Of a stretch of DNA of 20,822 nucleotides, positions 1,102 through 6,808 are shown in pieces. The DNA comes from a virus. The translations under genes were made by a program, and so were the position numbers. Each line of letters begins with the position of its first letter. The stretch's first letter is position 1. The DNA lies in IMG/VR virus record IMGVR_UViG_3300011114_000779, positions 1 through 20,822 of that record. One strand, given 5' to 3'. The notes below the pieces were generated by a model, which did not search any database, had not been told where the DNA came from, and was given only the letters and a program-made list of their open reading frames with translations.

Positions 1102-1263
1102 TTACTTTTGAGCACGTTCCCGGCGCTTAATCTCCCGATCCACAGCCTCTCGAATGAGGTCGGATCGCTTTTCGCCCTCCTCGAGAACGCTGTCGATGCG
1201 CTCGAGCGTGCCTTCGGGGAAGCGCGCCGGGGTTTGCTCGTGGTTGATCTGTTTCCTGCCCAT
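1102..1263 (-). CDS. Ribbon-helix-helix transcriptional repressor (CopG/Arc type, 53 aa)
   Basis: This 53-codon gene runs ATG 1263-1261 to TAA 1104-1102, against its neighbours. The product fits the ribbon-helix-helix fold: a short N-terminal strand (about residues 9-15, EQTPARF), helix A (about 16-29, GTLERIDSVLEEG), a turn, then helix B starting at Lys-Arg-Ser-Asp-Leu-Ile-Arg-Glu-Ala (32-50). Ser/Asp at the helix B cap and the spaced Ile/Leu/Val core are typical of CopG/MetJ/Arc proteins, which bind DNA as dimers through the strand. Three palindromes (1274-1354) lie directly upstream, suggesting autoregulation and control of the divergent gene at 1377. No Shine-Dalgarno is visible, and the promoter geometry predicts a leaderless message. 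It could instead be an orphan antitoxin, but no toxin gene adjoins it. It is the only leftward gene in the early block. Confidence 0.82.
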   Translation of the reverse strand: MGRKQINHEQTPARFPEGTLERIDSVLEEGEKRSDLIREAVDREIKRRERAQK

Positions 1264-1269
1264 CACCAG

Positions 1270-1298
1270 AATATAGATGATATCACGAATTGTTACAA
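1270..1298 (-). promoter_or_regulatory. Predicted promoter of the RHH repressor gene
   Basis: Read leftward, TTGTAA (1298-1293) and TATATT (1275-1270) are separated by exactly 17 bases and match the sigma-70 -35 and -10 consensus well. The predicted start of transcription falls about seven bases past the -10, at about 1263, which is the A of the repressor ATG. Operator site 1 sits in the spacer and overlaps the -10, so bound repressor should block this promoter. This is motif matching only. Confidence 0.55.
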
Positions 1299-1354
1299 GG
1301 GCCTATTTTGTAGATATCATCTATTGCAATCCTCCCCATTGATGATATCATCTA
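1274..1354. promoter_or_regulatory. Three palindromic operator sites between the RHH gene and its divergent neighbour
   Basis: Three GATATC-centred sites share the arm TAGATGATATC. Site 1 is TAGATGATATC at 1274-1284. Site 2 is the inverse, GATATCATCTA, at 1313-1323. Site 3 is GATGATATCATCTA at 1341-1354, containing a perfect 12-base palindrome at 1341-1352. Their centres are 34 and 31 bases apart, close to three DNA turns, which would put bound proteins on nearly the same face. Site 1 overlaps the predicted leftward promoter and site 3 the predicted rightward one. RHH repressors typically bind short palindromes in tandem, so the neighbouring 53-residue protein is the likely ligand. Confidence 0.72.
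1324..1351 (+). promoter_or_regulatory. Predicted rightward promoter for the gene at 1377
   Basis: TTGCAA (1324-1329) and TATCAT (1346-1351) are 16 bases apart and could serve as -35 and -10. The -10 lies inside palindromic operator site 3, so repressor binding would occlude it. The predicted start of transcription is near 1358, leaving a short leader with GGAG (1366-1369) before ATG 1377. The match to consensus is moderate. Confidence 0.4.
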
Positions 1355-1376
1355 ATCATCGAAACGGAGCAAGCAA

Positions 1377-1610
1377 ATGACCACCCGATCCAAGACCTAC
1401 TGCGGCGACCTCGAGAGCCAGAACGGCGATTACCTCGGCTGCATCCACAAGACAGAGGGCGGGTTCATCGTTCGCAAGCCGGACGGCTCGAGCATTGGCC
1501 CAGTGCAATTTGATGGCCGCATTTTCCAGGGCAACCAATTCACCAAAGTTCGCACCACCAACATCGGGTACGCGGTCGTCAAGTCCTACCGCCTCAAGGA
1601 AGCGGCCTAG
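1377..1610 (+). CDS. Hypothetical protein under the RHH operator (77 aa)
   Basis: ATG 1377 follows GGAG at 1366-1369. The 77-residue product is predicted to be mostly beta strand, with two cysteines (9 and 22), several Gly-Asp and Asp-Gly turns, and a basic C-terminal strand. No HTH, RHH or enzyme motif is seen, and I do not recognise a family. It is the first gene downstream of the rightward promoter that the operators appear to control, which makes it the natural partner of the RHH protein. It could be a regulator, an anti-host protein or simply the first early product. Confidence 0.75.
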   Translation: MTTRSKTYCGDLESQNGDYLGCIHKTEGGFIVRKPDGSSIGPVQFDGRIFQGNQFTKVRTTNIGYAVVKSYRLKEAA

Positions 1611-1630
1611 TGGCCGCCAGGAGTATCATC

Positions 1631-1786
1631 ATGGACCCCCTCGAAGCCGCCAACCATTACATCTACCTCGAGCAAACCGGCGCGCCTGGTGCCGCCGCTG
1701 GCTTCGCTCGAGGCTACGAAGAACGCGCCACCGAAGCCGAGTTCGACGCCTACCTCAGTTTTATCGACATTCAGGTTGCGGCCTGA
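1631..1786 (+). CDS. Small acidic hypothetical protein (51 aa)
   Basis: ATG 1631 follows CCAGGAG at 1617-1623, within normal distance. The 51-residue product is acidic and helical, rich in Ala, Glu and Tyr, with a glycine/alanine hinge near residues 18-28. It starts 20 bases after the preceding stop and is probably cotranscribed from the operator-controlled promoter. No family is recognised. A frame running across it from 1495 is a shadow. Confidence 0.65.
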   Translation: MDPLEAANHYIYLEQTGAPGAAAGFARGYEERATEAEFDAYLSFIDIQVAA

Positions 1787-1820
1787 TTTTAGCAACCAGA
1801 AATCAGCTTGGAGGCTGAAA

Positions 1821-2039
1821 ATGAAAATGGCCGAACTTCACGCGGACGTTGCCGACATTGAAACCGAGAAGGAGTTTCAGATGCGCCTCAAGTTGGAAAG
1901 CATCCTGCAACTGCTGGAGGATGCGAGGATCGACATGCGGCACATCCCATCCGACGATGCCCTTCGGAATTGGTCAGATGACAGCCAAGCCCAACTGGCG
2001 AAAGCCATCGACGCCTTGAAGCCGCTCGCGGGCTATTGA
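1821..2039 (+). CDS. Hypothetical helical protein (72 aa)
   Basis: ATG 1821 is preceded by TTGGAGG (1808-1814). The frame is open further upstream, but this start has the ribosome site and avoids overlap with the previous gene. The 72-residue product is almost all alpha-helical. Residues 13-40 form a charged amphipathic helix that could be a short coiled coil, and residues 55-68 a second helix. No enzyme motif is seen. Proteins of this type in phage early blocks are often small inhibitors or adaptors, but no role can be inferred. Confidence 0.65.
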   Translation: MKMAELHADVADIETEKEFQMRLKLESILQLLEDARIDMRHIPSDDALRNWSDDSQAQLAKAIDALKPLAGY

Positions 2040-2041
2040 GC

Positions 2042-2146
2042 GTGACCGCAAAAACCAAAAACACAGATATCAACAAGCATGTGCCGAGCGGACGCAAAAC
2101 CGCTTCCAATGGTGCACCCGCAACCAATTCAGCCGACGCCGCATAG
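2042..2146 (+). CDS. Possible 34-residue basic peptide
   Basis: A GTG at 2042, three bases after the preceding stop, opens a 34-codon frame ending at TAG 2144-2146. The peptide is low in hydrophobic residues and rich in Lys, Thr, Asn and Ala, so it is probably unstructured. No Shine-Dalgarno precedes it, and only the tight spacing supports translation. It fills what would otherwise be a 116-base gap and may simply be a spacer. Confidence 0.22.
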   Translation: MTAKTKNTDINKHVPSGRKTASNGAPATNSADAA

Positions 2147-2155
2147 GAGAGGTAT

Positions 2156-2389
2156 ATGCCGCAGAAAATAGTGACCGAATATTGGGCCAAGCCGATCCCG
2201 CCGCGCCAGTTCGATTGGGCTGCGCATTACGACGACCCGGAGGGGCATGTCGGGTACGGCGCGACCGAGCAGGAAGCGATCAACGATCTGCTGACCGAGC
2301 ACCCGCCCTGCAAGAACGAGAGCCCCTACGTCCGCTCTGACGGCGGATGCCTGAAATGCGATGCCGACCAGGGGGAGACGTGCCGATGA
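2156..2389 (+). CDS. Hypothetical phage protein with C-terminal Cys motif (77 aa)
   Basis: ATG 2156 has a strong ribosome site, AGGAGAGG at 2145-2152. The N-terminal half has strands followed by a Gly-Tyr-Gly-Ala-Thr turn and a short helix, a pattern also found in HicB-like and small phage proteins. The C-terminus carries CxxC (residues 65/68) followed by Ala-Asp-x-Gly-x-x-Cys-Arg, like the small zinc-finger tails of many phage proteins. The stop overlaps the next start (ATGA, 2386-2389), so the pair is likely coupled. The function is unknown. Confidence 0.75.
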   Translation: MPQKIVTEYWAKPIPPRQFDWAAHYDDPEGHVGYGATEQEAINDLLTEHPPCKNESPYVRSDGGCLKCDADQGETCR

Positions 2390-2589
2390 CTGACTTTGCA
2401 TGGGTGATCGAGAAGGGATCGGAGCCCAGCTACTACGCGCCGACCGAACCGGGCGAGTGGAGCCGGGATCATCTAAAGGCGTGCCGGTTCGCACGCAAAG
2501 AGGATGCCGAAGCGATCCAGTTCCGCCACGTCACGCACGGGCTACTGCCGGTCGAAGGCACTCGCGTCTGCGAACATGGGTGGGGCTGA
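2386..2589 (+). CDS. Conserved small phage protein (67 aa)
   Basis: The start overlaps the preceding stop by four bases. The 67-residue product has a layout found in many phages of alphaproteobacteria: an N-terminal Trp-Val-Ile strand, a central Tyr-Tyr and Trp-Ser turn, then an Arg-Phe-Ala-Arg-Lys-Glu-Asp-Ala-Glu helix (about 34-43). A His/Cys pair near the C-terminus may be fortuitous. No molecular role is known to me for this group. It probably lies in one transcription unit with its neighbours. Confidence 0.7.
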   Translation: MTDFAWVIEKGSEPSYYAPTEPGEWSRDHLKACRFARKEDAEAIQFRHVTHGLLPVEGTRVCEHGWG

Positions 2590-2591
2590 AT

Positions 2592-2840
2592 ATGGGCCTG
2601 CGGGACCGCTGCAAAGAGCACTACCAGCGCATGGGGCGCGACAACATGCTGCGCCAAGGCTCGCCGGTTGATGACCTGACCGCGTTCGTGGCTTCGGAGA
2701 TCGGGCGCGCCGCCGATAGCTCGCTCGAAGATACGTTGCCGCTCTGCCTCTACTTCGGCACCGCTCAGGACCGGAAAGAATTTCTCGAACTGGTGCGTGA
2801 GGCCAAGCCCAACTGGATCACAAAGCATTGGCCGCGCTGA
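2592..2840 (+). CDS. Hypothetical phage protein (82 aa)
   Basis: ATG 2592 begins two bases after the previous stop. A G-rich stretch inside the previous gene (GGTGGGG, about 2579-2585) can act as ribosome site. The 82-residue product is mainly helical. An N-terminal helix carries Arg, Cys and His, a central acidic helix covers about residues 26-46, and an aromatic/basic tail ends in His-Trp-Pro-Arg. No motif is recognised. A longer reading from 2400 lies over the previous gene in another frame and is rejected as a start. Confidence 0.7.
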   Translation: MGLRDRCKEHYQRMGRDNMLRQGSPVDDLTAFVASEIGRAADSSLEDTLPLCLYFGTAQDRKEFLELVREAKPNWITKHWPR

Positions 2841-2878
2841 CGCTGAATTTCCATCAGTGCCGACGAAAGGATTGAAAA

Positions 2879-3052
2879 ATGCAGCCCAAAGTAACCGACA
2901 ACGACCAAGACACCATCACCGTCGAGCATGGCGGCAAGGTCGTTCGGGAATACAGCTACCGAAATGACGATGAGCGCCGTGTGCGTATGGTGCGCGCCCG
3001 CGAGTACGTCGAAGGGTGGTGCGATGCGCTGGACCAAAAGGTGCCCGCATGA
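2879..3052 (+). CDS. Small conserved phage protein (57 aa)
   Basis: ATG 2879 is preceded by GAAAGG (2865-2870). The 57-residue product has an N-terminal strand pair around His-Gly-Gly-Lys. A helix follows with the pattern Asp-Asp-Glu-Arg-Arg-x-x-Met-x-x-Ala-Arg-x-Tyr-Val-Glu-Gly-Trp (about 30-47), which I recall from small proteins of rhizobial phages. Its stop overlaps the next start (ATGA, 3049-3052). The function is unknown. Confidence 0.7.
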   Translation: MQPKVTDNDQDTITVEHGGKVVREYSYRNDDERRVRMVRAREYVEGWCDALDQKVPA

Positions 3053-3567
3053 CGCCAGACTATGGCCCTTGGAAGGACAGCGGCGTAGCTGGCTTATGGC
3101 TGCCGGACGGCTATGACGAATTTGGGCGCTTCAAACAGGTCAGAAACGAAAAGCTCCACGTCCGCCTGACCTTTGAGCGCGTTCGAAACCGCGTCCTTTG
3201 CGAACAATGGCGCGATGCTGCCGTGGCGGATGGCTGGTCGATAGAACCGACCTATAGTCATGAGCCGCAGGAACACGCCTTCCGCCTCAAGCGCGAGGGC
3301 TTTGTGGTTCAAGGTCTCGCGCGTCCGATACCGGGACCGCACGGCACTACCCCCGTTCCCCAAGTCAGCATTTGGGGACCGGATGGGTTGGCCATCGAGC
3401 CACCACTTACCTACAGCTTCGAAGCGATCAAGCGCGGCGCTGAGACGTGCGGGGCGTGCGGCGCATATCCAGTGGCGACCGAGCGCGTGGCGTTCGTCAA
3501 TCGGTGCTGCGCGGCCTGCGCTCCAAAAGAACGGGCACGGCTTGAGGTTGGAAATTGGTCTGAATAA
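3049..3567 (+). CDS. Hypothetical protein with C-terminal zinc-ribbon motif (172 aa)
   Basis: The ATG at 3049 overlaps the preceding stop by four bases and is preferred to the in-frame start at 3016, which would overlap the previous gene more. The 172-residue protein has an N-terminal Gly/Trp/Asp-rich region, a central mixed region, and a C-terminal candidate zinc site: CxxC at 134/137 and Cys-Cys-x-x-Cys at 153/154/157, sixteen residues apart. Two CxxC pairs on a beta hairpin are the usual zinc-ribbon pattern. DNA or RNA binding is plausible but not shown. This is one of several such proteins in the block. Confidence 0.75.
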   Translation: MTPDYGPWKDSGVAGLWLPDGYDEFGRFKQVRNEKLHVRLTFERVRNRVLCEQWRDAAVADGWSIEPTYSHEPQEHAFRLKREGFVVQGLARPIPGPHGTTPVPQVSIWGPDGLAIEPPLTYSFEAIKRGAETCGACGAYPVATERVAFVNRCCAACAPKERARLEVGNWSE

Positions 3568-3605
3568 AGCGCGGCGATGATGCGCCCTGAGCGCGGAGGA
3601 ACCAA

Positions 3606-3770
3606 ATGCGCCGATATTTTTGCTGGTTGCTAGGGCACCGCTGGGCAATCCTCGATTGGAACGAGGAGCGCGGTCGGATGCGCTGCACCGACTGCCAGCA
3701 CGTTGAGCCGCTACGGGGCGAGGCTCTAGTTGAATGGATCAGGTGGCGTACAAAGCGCGCCTCGCGCTAA
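3606..3770 (+). CDS. Small Cys-containing prophage-type protein, DUF1660-like (54 aa)
   Basis: ATG 3606 has a strong GCGGAGGAACC ribosome site just upstream (3593-3603). The 54-residue product starts Met-Arg-Arg-Tyr-Phe-Cys-Trp-Leu-Leu-Gly-His-Arg-Trp and carries a second pair, Cys-x-x-Cys, at 27/30. A cysteine followed by Gly-His and a later CxxC resembles small prophage proteins of the DUF1660 type, where these residues probably bind a metal. The C-terminal tail is Arg/Trp-rich. The family assignment is from pattern memory only. Confidence 0.62.
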   Translation: MRRYFCWLLGHRWAILDWNEERGRMRCTDCQHVEPLRGEALVEWIRWRTKRASR

Positions 3771-3795
3771 CCGCCGCTTTCCGTCGAGGAACACA

Positions 3796-3882
3796 ATGGC
3801 TGAAACTACCTACACGATCTTAGTGCTGACGTTCGGAGCCGGGGCGCTGTTCGGCATCTGGCTGCGCGGCAGATATGGCTAG
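3796..3882 (+). CDS. Tiny membrane protein (28 aa)
   Basis: ATG 3796 follows GAGGA at 3786-3790. The 28-residue product is essentially one transmembrane helix (about residues 6-22, with a Gly-Ala-Gly-Ala-Leu-Phe-Gly small-residue motif that could allow helix packing) and a basic Arg-Gly-Arg tail placed to face the cytoplasm. The gene is very short. It is supported by the ribosome site, the clean hydrophobic profile and its place between two genes on the same strand. The function is unknown. Confidence 0.5.
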   Translation: MAETTYTILVLTFGAGALFGIWLRGRYG

Positions 3883-3906
3883 AATCCGGGCTCGGAGAGA
3901 TTGAGC

Positions 3907-4080
3907 ATGGCCGCGAAACGTAAAAAGAAAGAGGCAGTCGTCCACATGCGGGCGCGGCGGAGCGACATTGACCTGATTGACCAAGCGGCTCGCGTCATGC
4001 GCGTTACCCGCTCGGAGTTTATCCGCAACGCCGCCGAGGTCCGCGCGATGCGTGTTTTGGAAATTACCGGGACGCGCTGA
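3907..4080 (+). CDS. DUF1778/TacA-like ribbon-helix-helix protein (57 aa)
   Basis: ATG 3907 opens a 57-codon frame. After a basic N-terminus (AKRKKK) comes a strand (about 9-15), then helix A with Ile-Asp-Leu-Ile-Asp-Gln-Ala-Ala (21-28). After the turn Met-Arg-Val-Thr comes Arg-Ser-Glu-Phe-Ile-Arg-Asn-Ala-Ala (35-43). The spacing of the AA and S-E-F-I motifs matches DUF1778/TacA antitoxin-type RHH proteins. These usually pair with a downstream GNAT acetyltransferase toxin, but the following 67-residue gene is far too small and lacks acetyl-CoA motifs. It may therefore be a phage-borne orphan antitoxin that neutralises a host toxin, or a second regulator. The ribosome site is weak. Confidence 0.72.
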   Translation: MAAKRKKKEAVVHMRARRSDIDLIDQAARVMRVTRSEFIRNAAEVRAMRVLEITGTR

Positions 4081-4105
4081 CGTGTCGAATGTGACGGAGG
4101 ATGAA

Positions 4106-4309
4106 ATGGCGAAGAAGCGCAAGACCGCAAAGCGGCACAAGCCAAAGAGTTACATGCTGGTCATTCGCGTGGCCGTCCCCGCGCGGCTCGTTCCGAAACT
4201 GCAAGTGATGCGCGTGATGGGGAAACTGCCAGACAGTTGGCTCATGCGCGACCTAGAGATTTTGAACGCCTACTACGACATGCCGATGCAGCCGAGCGGT
4301 TATAGGTAG
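4106..4309 (+). CDS. Basic hypothetical protein (67 aa)
   Basis: ATG 4106 is chosen because GGAGG (4096-4100) sits five bases upstream. In-frame GTGs at 4082 and 4091 are possible but lack a ribosome site. The 67-residue product begins with a highly basic tail (MAKKRKTAKRHKPK), then a strand Tyr-Met-Leu-Val-Ile-Arg-Val, then helices and an aromatic Tyr-Tyr-Asp end. The basic tail suggests nucleic acid or acidic-partner binding. It starts 25 bases after the DUF1778-like gene, where a toxin would be expected, but it shows no toxin motif. Confidence 0.68.
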   Translation: MAKKRKTAKRHKPKSYMLVIRVAVPARLVPKLQVMRVMGKLPDSWLMRDLEILNAYYDMPMQPSGYR

Positions 4310-4312
4310 AGA

Positions 4313-4492
4313 ATGCCAGCGCGCAGAACCGGGAAATTCAAGTGTGTCGCCTGTGGCCGGATCACGGTCCAGCCGATTGACAAGGATCACCCAGCCCATG
4401 AGATCAGGTCATGGTGCTGCGGCTGTTCGTTCGAGCGCGTCTGGTTCAAGCAAATCCATGACAGCATTTCAATGCCAACGGAGAAAAAATGA
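4313..4492 (+). CDS. Small zinc-finger-like protein (59 aa)
   Basis: ATG 4313 lies three bases after the previous stop, with AGGTAGAGA directly before it. The 59-residue product has CxxC at 11/14 and Cys-Cys-x-Cys at 35/36/38, with His residues between (26 and 29), a good candidate for one zinc site. The N-terminus is basic, and an aromatic helix (41-49) follows the second cysteine group. It overlaps the next gene by four bases (ATGA, 4489-4492). It is shorter than 60 residues and easily missed. DNA, RNA or protein binding is possible. Confidence 0.65.
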   Translation: MPARRTGKFKCVACGRITVQPIDKDHPAHEIRSWCCGCSFERVWFKQIHDSISMPTEKK

Positions 4493-4704
4493 GCGATATT
4501 TTTTACGAGGTCGCGTTCGGCATTACTCGCGTCGAACTGTCAAAAGCCAAGGCCGAGATCGAGCGGCTGCGGGCGGCTGGTCTGGCGGCAATGCAGCGGC
4601 TCAACGAAAGCGGCACGGGCGAAATGGGCCTCACTGATACCATCCACGCCACCCATCGGATTCTAGCCGCCGCTTTTCAGCAGTCAGGGGGCGACACCAA
4701 ATGA
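4489..4704 (+). CDS. Hypothetical helical protein (71 aa)
   Basis: The start overlaps the preceding stop as ATGA. The 71-residue product is nearly all helical. A short aromatic N-terminus precedes a charged heptad-like helix (about residues 15-42, ELSKAKAEIERLRAAG), which may form a coiled coil, followed by a second helix with His and Ala. It also overlaps the next gene by four bases, so three genes (4313-4904) form a coupled set. No function is recognised. Confidence 0.7.
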   Translation: MSDIFYEVAFGITRVELSKAKAEIERLRAAGLAAMQRLNESGTGEMGLTDTIHATHRILAAAFQQSGGDTK

Positions 4705-4904
4705 CCGTCAAAGAACTGATAGCCATACTACAAAGCAAGCCCCAGGACATCCTGGTAGCATATCGGTGCTGTAGTGAGTGGGTTCTGCTTGAAGCGGACG
4801 ACATAGGCGTTGACGCCCTCTGTGTGCCTCGCGGTGATGGATGGGTGGCTAACCCTCGCCCGGACAAGCCAAAGCAGGACTATCTAACTCTGCCCGGAAA
4901 CTGA
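4701..4904 (+). CDS. Conserved small phage protein (67 aa)
   Basis: The ATG at 4701 overlaps the previous stop by four bases. The N-terminus, Thr-Val-Lys-Glu-Leu-Ile followed by Leu-x-x-x-Pro-Gln-Asp-Ile-Leu-Val, is a pattern shared by many small phage proteins in which a helix presents a Pro-Gln-Asp turn before a strand. It continues with strands containing Cys-Cys and Leu-Leu-Glu-Ala and ends in Leu-Pro-Gly-Asn. The biochemical role is unknown. It is the last rightward gene before the converging late block. Confidence 0.75.
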   Translation: MTVKELIAILQSKPQDILVAYRCCSEWVLLEADDIGVDALCVPRGDGWVANPRPDKPKQDYLTLPGN

Positions 4905-5838: not shown

Positions 5839-6059
5839 TCCGTCTCTCGCGTGTAGTCGAACTCTTCATCGTCGCTGTCATCGAAAACCAGACCGGCGGT
5901 GAAGCCGATGGCTTCCGGGAGTTCTTGCCGTCGCAATTCTGGCGTCAGAGGCTCGGCATCCGGCACCTTGGCGCGCGAGACAACGCCGCGCTTCTCCTCG
6001 ATGACCGGGCGGCCTGATGGGTGCCCCATCTTTGGCGGCTCTATCGGTTTGTGTTTCAC
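5835..6059 (-). CDS. Hypothetical acidic-tailed protein (74 aa)
   Basis: The chosen start is GTG at 6059, overlapping the exonuclease stop by four bases (GTGA), with GGGGGA nine bases upstream. The longer frame reaching 6179 would run inside the exonuclease gene and is rejected. The product has a Pro-rich start, a basic middle and a strongly acidic C-terminus (Asp-Asp-Ser-Asp-Asp-Glu-Glu), suggesting a disordered partner-binding protein. Its coupling to the nuclease gene makes an accessory role to that enzyme possible. No family is recognised. Confidence 0.62.
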   Translation of the reverse strand: MKHKPIEPPKMGHPSGRPVIEEKRGVVSRAKVPDAEPLTPELRRQELPEAIGFTAGLVFDDSDDEEFDYTRETE

Positions 6060-6808
6060 TTGACACGATCCCCCGAGAAAGACGCCCCACAGTCTTTGCA
6101 AAGCAGACGCTGACGGACGACGGCCTTTCCGTAATTTAGCCCGCGCATCCGAATGTTCGGAGATTGGCAGGTCGGGCAATGACTATGCCCGCTCCATAGA
6201 TTCAGGTTCGGATGGTTCGGCGCCCACGGCTTTAGCTTCTCGTACACGCGCTCAAGCAGTTCAACGTCGCGCGCATTATAACGCCGCATCAGCCTCCATG
6301 ACGGAGCGTGGCCCGACATGCACGATAACCACAGATGCACGCCGGTGTGGGGGAGCTTCTGCCCGACCTTGAGGCTTTGTCCGAGGTCGTTGAGCCGGTT
6401 GCTATCGAACTTGAAGTGCCGGCGCGCGATCTTGAGTGTGTCGATTGTCTTGTATGGGGATGGCGGCTTAAGCCCGTGCTGGATAAAGCGCGCGTTGGAC
6501 TTGCGGATGTCGAAGCGGTCGCCGTTGTGCGCGATCAGGATGTCGGCTTCGTCAAAAACATCATACAGGTCTTTGACTAGATCGCGGTCGTTTTCCTTGT
6601 CCCGCTTGAACAGCGGATAGTCTGGAAGGGCGTAGGTATCGACGCGCTTTGCCCCCATCCATTTCACTGCGAACGACAGCATGTACCAGTCGTTCTCAAC
6701 CGCGATGATGTTCCCCTCTTTCCACTTGACGAAAAAGTACCCGAGGGATGGTGCTGTCTCGATGTCTATGAACGCAATACGGGGCTGGCGTCCCGTTGGT
6801 TCTCGCAT
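6056..6808 (-). CDS. DEDD-type (RNase H-like) 3'-5' exonuclease with C-terminal zinc ribbon
   Basis: The 250-residue protein has the three exonuclease motifs of the DEDD superfamily: ExoI Phe-Ile-Asp-Ile-Glu-Thr (D15, E17), ExoII Ala-His-Asn-Gly-Asp-x-Phe-Asp (N95, D100), and ExoIII Tyr-Asn-Ala-Arg-Asp (Y177, D181). These residues bind two metal ions and cleave nucleotides from 3' ends. A zinc ribbon follows, with CxxC at 211/214 and 237/240, likely to grip nucleic acid. No polymerase domain is attached, and the length fits the YprB-like RNase H-like proteins found in phages. It may process phage DNA or RNA. Its place near the end of the late operon, behind a membrane protein with which it overlaps by one base (TGATG), is unusual for a replication enzyme. 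Confidence 0.85.
   Translation of the reverse strand: MREPTGRQPRIAFIDIETAPSLGYFFVKWKEGNIIAVENDWYMLSFAVKWMGAKRVDTYALPDYPLFKRDKENDRDLVKDLYDVFDEADILIAHNGDRFDIRKSNARFIQHGLKPPSPYKTIDTLKIARRHFKFDSNRLNDLGQSLKVGQKLPHTGVHLWLSCMSGHAPSWRLMRRYNARDVELLERVYEKLKPWAPNHPNLNLWSGHSHCPTCQSPNIRMRGLNYGKAVVRQRLLCKDCGASFSGDRVK

Follow-up and report, generated by a model that had tools for sequence, protein, structure and literature searches.

Results and Discussion

The DNA analysed here, a virus record of 20,822 nucleotides (IMG/VR IMGVR_UViG_3300011114_000779; the whole stretch is called the window in the following), carries a small leftward gene for a ribbon-helix-helix (RHH)-like protein of 53 residues that most probably, with a probability of roughly 0.8, acts as an autorepressor dedicated to a divergent early operon with variable small genes and does so beside any CI/Cro switch. 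Judged from the sequences of its relatives, the gene and the palindromes in front of it are a real regulatory module that is conserved in dozens of related phages.

The gene, its putative operators and the predicted promoters are listed in Table 1. A search of the whole window for TAGATGATATCATCTA with up to three mismatches gave exactly three places, all upstream of the RHH gene, while 0.03 matches are expected by chance from shuffled sequences. Each of the three sites contains one exact copy of the arm TAGATGATATC, and the distances between their centres (1281.5, 1315.5 and 1346.5) are 34 and 31 bp. A near-perfect palindrome is formed by site 3 alone; in each of sites 1 and 2 one arm is perfect and the other degenerate. 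A sequence-only reading of this DNA had pointed out a 53-codon leftward gene, three GATATC palindromes and a divergent gene at 1377, and all of them are indeed present, with the sites far beyond chance. It had also placed the sites on promoter-like hexamers, and we can confirm that they overlap or flank such hexamers on both strands: three hexamer pairs were found against 0.4 expected, one on the minus strand (1298/1270) and two on the plus strand, including a further pair at 1292/1320.

Table 1: Features of the RHH locus in the window (positions in nucleotides; operators, promoters and operon are predictions).
Feature	Positions	Strand	Details
RHH repressor gene (predicted)	1102..1263	-	ATG at 1263, stop at 1102; 53 aa
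Predicted RHH promoter	1270..1298	-	-35 TTGTAA (1298-1293), 17 bp, -10 TATATT (1275-1270)
Operator site 1 (putative)	1274..1289		TAGATGATATCACGAA; inside -35/-10 spacer of RHH promoter
Operator site 2 (putative)	1308..1323		TTGTAGATATCATCTA; between the promoters, abuts divergent -35
Predicted divergent promoter	1324..1351	+	-35 TTGCAA (1324-1329), 16 bp, -10 TATCAT (1346-1351)
Operator site 3 (putative)	1339..1354		TTGATGATATCATCTA; best palindrome; overlaps divergent -10
Shine-Dalgarno GGAG of divergent gene	1366..1369	+	leader conserved in relatives
First divergent gene	1377..1610	+	ATG 1377; 77 aa; no relatives found
Block of small rightward ORFs, presumed target operon	1377..4904	+	extent judged by strand and spacing alone

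The position of site 1 (about -22) is kept in most relatives, and the position equivalent to the divergent -35 reads TTGAC in most of them. Their divergent genes have ACGGAG-type leaders and often start about 115–120 bp from the RHH start. The distance from the -10 of the RHH promoter to the ATG is 6 bp here and 6–7 bp in 37 of 50 loci, a count from a promoter search in which TTG was required and the best match taken, so that single loci may be misread. As this gap is short and Shine-Dalgarno-like 4-mers in front of the RHH gene are rarer (2 of 63 loci, 3%) than at random positions (11%), the RHH mRNA is probably leaderless. It is probably also a one-gene transcript, since an ORF for 202 amino acids at 446-1054 on the plus strand (PHROG 18493, unknown function, E 3.5e-19) is convergent with the RHH gene.

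The 53-residue protein matches PHROG 949 (unknown function, E 1.6e-7) and the NCBIfam profile for YlcI/YnfO (NF041551, YlcI_YnfO_N) with 40 bits at a curated cut-off of 30, and all 44 aligned family members reach the latter model. In a Pfam profile search it did not reach the RHH profile RHH_1. The AlphaFold2 model, a monomer built from 44 relatives (pLDDT 88), shows an extended segment (residues 9–18) followed by helices 19–26 and 33–52 and thereby has the order of the RHH superfamily fold with an N-terminal strand and two helices in about 45–50 residues. Its best matches in the PDB are the RHH proteins ParD2, ParD1 and Reg576, and only RHH proteins match at a TM above 0.45 (Foldseek best E 5.8, TM 0.65; VIA Z 3.4–5.1, best 5.1), weak E-values being what one would expect of a query of 53 residues modelled as a monomer. 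Arc itself is absent among the Foldseek and VIA matches listed, which does not count against an Arc-like fold. The model thus supports the assignment of the protein as RHH-like. With the proline that ends the strand as anchor, E9-Q10-T11-P12-A13-R14-F15-P16 is equivalent to Arc 8–15, and the Arc contact residues Q9, N11 and R13 would then presumably correspond to Q10, P12 and R14. The predicted β-strand comprises residues 9–15 (EQTPARF) and belongs to the strand type P12/R14, residue 14 being a near-invariant Arg across the aligned relatives.

Scans of IMG/VR yielded 26 and then 80 loci, and the about 80 related loci are mostly located on phage or prophage contigs. A single-protein search of GTDB genomes added a few alphaproteobacterial loci from Bradyrhizobium, Devosia and Azospirillum as well as distant RHH proteins; such distant proteins occur in many Melainabacteria/Obscuribacterales genomes (L093–L125), with the similarity limited to the helix part. 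Annotated relatives are Caulobacter phage DMCA (PQ480021) and Sinorhizobium phage StopSmel (OR786374), and the named isolates and hosts of the family are alphaproteobacterial. A phage collection searched by DNA gave no match to the window.

Relatives that keep the gene and lose the repeats, named in the sequence-only reading as the finding that would speak against it, are rare: of the 43 loci with a P12/R14 strand, 40 have at least two GATATC sites in the 400 bp upstream, the array being missing in L008, L043 and L090. In this class there are two to four GATATC palindromes per locus, and their usual distances to the RHH start are about 22, 57, 82 and 102 bp or, as in the window, 22, 56 and 87 bp. 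The spacings between sites vary across relatives (18–20, 23–27, 31 and 34–36 bp) and the helical phase is not conserved, which favours separate dimers on promoter elements over a uniform cooperative array; cooperative binding to one fixed tandem array is accordingly not supported. Occupancy of all three sites in the window is likewise not assured, as spacing and number vary and sites 1 and 2 have a single perfect arm.

Two other layouts were seen among the relatives. In four loci (L012, L013, L018 and L021) the GATATC sites are about 300 bp upstream, before a small ORF that was apparently inserted ahead of the RHH gene, and the repressor would therefore come second in the transcript. In loci with CATATG operators (L068:2780-2853, alike in L071, L072, L079 and L084) the promoters apparently overlap face to face with one palindrome in common and a forward promoter TTGAC-N17-TATGAT, whereas the GATATC class has a back-to-back layout.

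A strong argument for binding of the palindromes by the protein comes from their covariation. Proteins with EDMQARF, DMQARF or close strands pair with TCATATGA, and among the DM(Q/V)AR loci CATATG is found in 20 of 21 and two GATATC in none of the 21 (Fisher p about 1e-11 to 1e-13 for the GATATC versus CATATG split, relatedness being ignored). These counts rest on a fixed 8-bp palindrome search and on hexamer counts, a free-form 12-bp PWM having been dropped after its register slipped in many loci; choosing the best palindrome per locus without knowledge of the protein gave the identical split. The operator of EKTMARF (KTMARF) is TGGTATCA, and the StopSmel strand PVLVRL pairs with CGATATCG in the 8-bp palindrome search. 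Inspection of the upstream sequences by eye assigned EQTIIRL and DTTIIRL (TIIRL) to TGTAATCA or TGTTATCA, EQTVARF to TGATAACA, EQASARF to TGATAGCA and TGCTAGCA, DTAIARL to TGATAGCA, EVYLAKF to GTATATAC, DRITLPL and ERILLPL to CGTATATACG and ENINLTL to TCATGTACATGA, while EKTMARF, EAMVARF and QSMTARF all go with (T)GGTATCA.

Among the 53 columns of the alignment, columns 10 and 12 have the top normalised mutual information with the operator type (0.81 each), the operators having again been chosen blind to the protein. Column 7 also scores 0.78, and part of the covariation is therefore explained by common descent. After controlling for the rest of the protein, operator and strand differences show a partial correlation of 0.54 (permutation p 0.0005); after controlling for the strand, that between operator and the rest of the protein is 0.18. 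Within the N7 clade column 12 alone stands out (z 17; next column 6.4): P12 occurs with GATATC in 40 of 40 loci and 11 of the 12 non-P12 loci are without it, the sole exception being L057 with EAALGRF and TGATATCA. This test left out six loci with an unrecognisable array or a broken N-terminus, three of which are P12/R14. Comparison of the loci thus shows the pairing of protein and operator type and the location of the sites on promoter-like elements, and it provides strong evidence that the 53-residue protein is the predicted cognate binder of the palindromes in the window.

Exact copies of TGATATCANNTA occur 43 times in 17 of the 20 P12-class records, all at most about 400 bp away from the RHH start as computed from the locus ranges, and the reversed pattern used as control gave 0 matches. 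Likewise, each exact CTCATATGAG in the 13 DMQARF records sits at the RHH gene. Exact TGATATCANNTA was found in 0 of these 13 records and exact CTCATATGAG in none of the 20 P12 records. Since exact sites are confined to the RHH locus, the regulon of the protein seems to be one intergenic region. A wider regulon was also considered and discarded, as exact sites were not found elsewhere in the surveyed relatives; scattered sites with one mismatch in records of the CATATG class resemble background.

Most ORFs of the presumed target operon are without a family match, and the first divergent genes of the relatives form 72 clusters among 83 loci, based on a rough ORF picking that is wrong in some cases; most of those tested had no family match either. 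As the first divergent gene in the window is also without relatives, we rejected it as part of the conserved module and regard it as cargo. According to the locus comparison, the constant part consists of repressor, operators, predicted promoters and leader, and the genes behind are exchanged. One cargo gene with a recognisable relationship is the first divergent gene of L089, which is PAPS-reductase-like (PHROG 424, E 1e-6). The divergent block of the window includes a second RHH-type ORF at 3901-4080 on the plus strand, which was absent from the sequence-only reading and matches a TacA1-like antitoxin and RHH_1 barely over the Pfam cut-offs. Further downstream, at 6056-6808 on the minus strand, a homologue of a DNA polymerase exonuclease subunit (PHROG 403, E 3e-78) is encoded on the same strand as the structural and lysis genes.

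From these data we propose the following model. The strand residues 9–15 would pair with the strand of a second subunit, with residues 10, 12 and 14 reading the major groove of the TGATATCA palindromes. Infecting DNA would be free of bound repressor, so that both divergent promoters could fire and the rightward small genes would be expressed together with the RHH gene, the latter probably from its leaderless transcript. The accumulating protein would fill site 1 in its own promoter, site 3 at the rightward -10 and site 2 between them and would thereby shut off both promoters, so that the rightward genes would be expressed in an early pulse that limits itself. As the sites cover both divergent promoters, the arrangement is most naturally read as repression of both the RHH gene and the rightward block; we infer repression, autoregulation and the temporal pulse from this arrangement, and the early timing of the pulse is suggested by analogy to known systems.

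Self-repression together with repression of the rightward block had been claimed before, and this part is strengthened by the covariation and by sites over both promoters. The accompanying idea that the RHH protein serves as the main lysogeny switch in place of CI/Cro appears unlikely. It would agree with the divergent, autoregulated and hence switch-like geometry, and also with the lack of a visible HTH regulator, which we can confirm as neither an HTH_3 domain nor a tyrosine integrase was detected when both were looked for in the 20.8-kb window. This record may well be a fragment, however, and among 36 relatives 22 have an HTH_3 regulator that exceeds the cut-off, in several cases in a divergent pair at another place in the genome, and 23 have a tyrosine integrase; in StopSmel a c repressor and Ner are even located 0.3–1 kb from the module. 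Activation is also within reach of RHH proteins, and site 2 directly upstream of the divergent -35 is in a position that activators can use. That the protein activates the divergent promoter, with or without also repressing it, is nevertheless very improbable, because another site lies over the -10 or between -35 and -10 in the window and in most relatives, which is a classical place for repression.

RHH proteins with several repeats are also known from partition, where they often autoregulate too, and the array could then be a centromere-like site bound by a partition adaptor of the ParR, ParG or Omega type. We give little credence to this, as an ATPase of the ParA type (PF13614) was found in 0 of 30 relatives, the sites number just two to four with each of them on promoter elements, and integrases are present in most relatives (23 of 36). 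Scarcely any more probable is an antitoxin whose partner would be the divergent gene: ParD antitoxins are the best structural matches, but the protein has little beyond the RHH fold and is without a C-terminal toxin-binding tail, and a first divergent gene that differs almost everywhere (72 clusters, 83 loci) means that there is no conserved toxin. A dedicated autorepressor in front of exchangeable early genes is therefore the reading we prefer. More tentatively, and with the odds rather against it, the system might be a second control module of phages that can be exchanged as a unit, with one RHH gene and its operators in at least seven specificities read by residues 10–14 before an ever-changing early, perhaps anti-defence cargo, and superinfecting phages might be silenced depending on their specificity type.

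Conclusion

In summary, PHROG 949, so far listed as unknown, can be given a function. The natural strand/operator pairs (GATATC, CATATG, TAATCA, TAGC, GGTATC, GTATAC and GTAC types) can serve directly as data for an RHH recognition code. Exact operators point to a single promoter in each phage and can thus be used to locate the presumably first-expressed small genes, a group in which host-takeover or anti-defence functions are frequent.

By profile the protein belongs with the YlcI/YnfO family from the E. coli prophages DLP12 and Qin, whose NF041551 model also covers all aligned members. The E. coli genes were rejected as a model for the module, since the palindrome array was not found upstream of ylcI or ynfO; an inverted repeat ATCAATTA / TAATTGAT is present there in place of the array (L136:4650-4700 and L137:17500-17550). 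No function for PHROG 949 or YlcI/YnfO was found in the literature searched, from which subscription papers were mostly absent.

Arc from phage P22 (immI), with a length of 53 residues, is likewise a phage RHH protein that is autoregulated through an operator between -35 and -10 and coexists with a separate CI-type repressor. The two differ in that the arc-ant operon has a single operator, whereas the GATATC palindromes are spread over a divergent region, where no antirepressor gene was noticed. A PDB sequence search gave no significant match to Arc; among the aligned members, a single one hits PHROG 2639 ('Arc-like repressor'), at E 0.054. Besides Arc, the nearest parallel in function is Reg, found on p576 and further pLS20-family plasmids of clade II, an RHH repressor of highly variable establishment genes whose repression is thought to allow transient expression on entry (PMC8708921), and Reg576 (6gyg) is a structural match to our model; Reg, however, belongs to a plasmid and controls several operons, in contrast to the one locus per phage observed here. 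The phage counterparts of Reg, the Aca repressors, are described as HTH proteins (PMC8708921, PMC11065993); they are also small autorepressors of early operons with fast-changing small genes but differ from the RHH protein in their fold. Autoregulated phage RHH repressors are of a known kind. As far as the literature searched goes, with few subscription papers among it, three things are new: a role for an uncharacterised family, its regulon of a single locus in front of genes that change, and the way in which strand and operator covary in nature.
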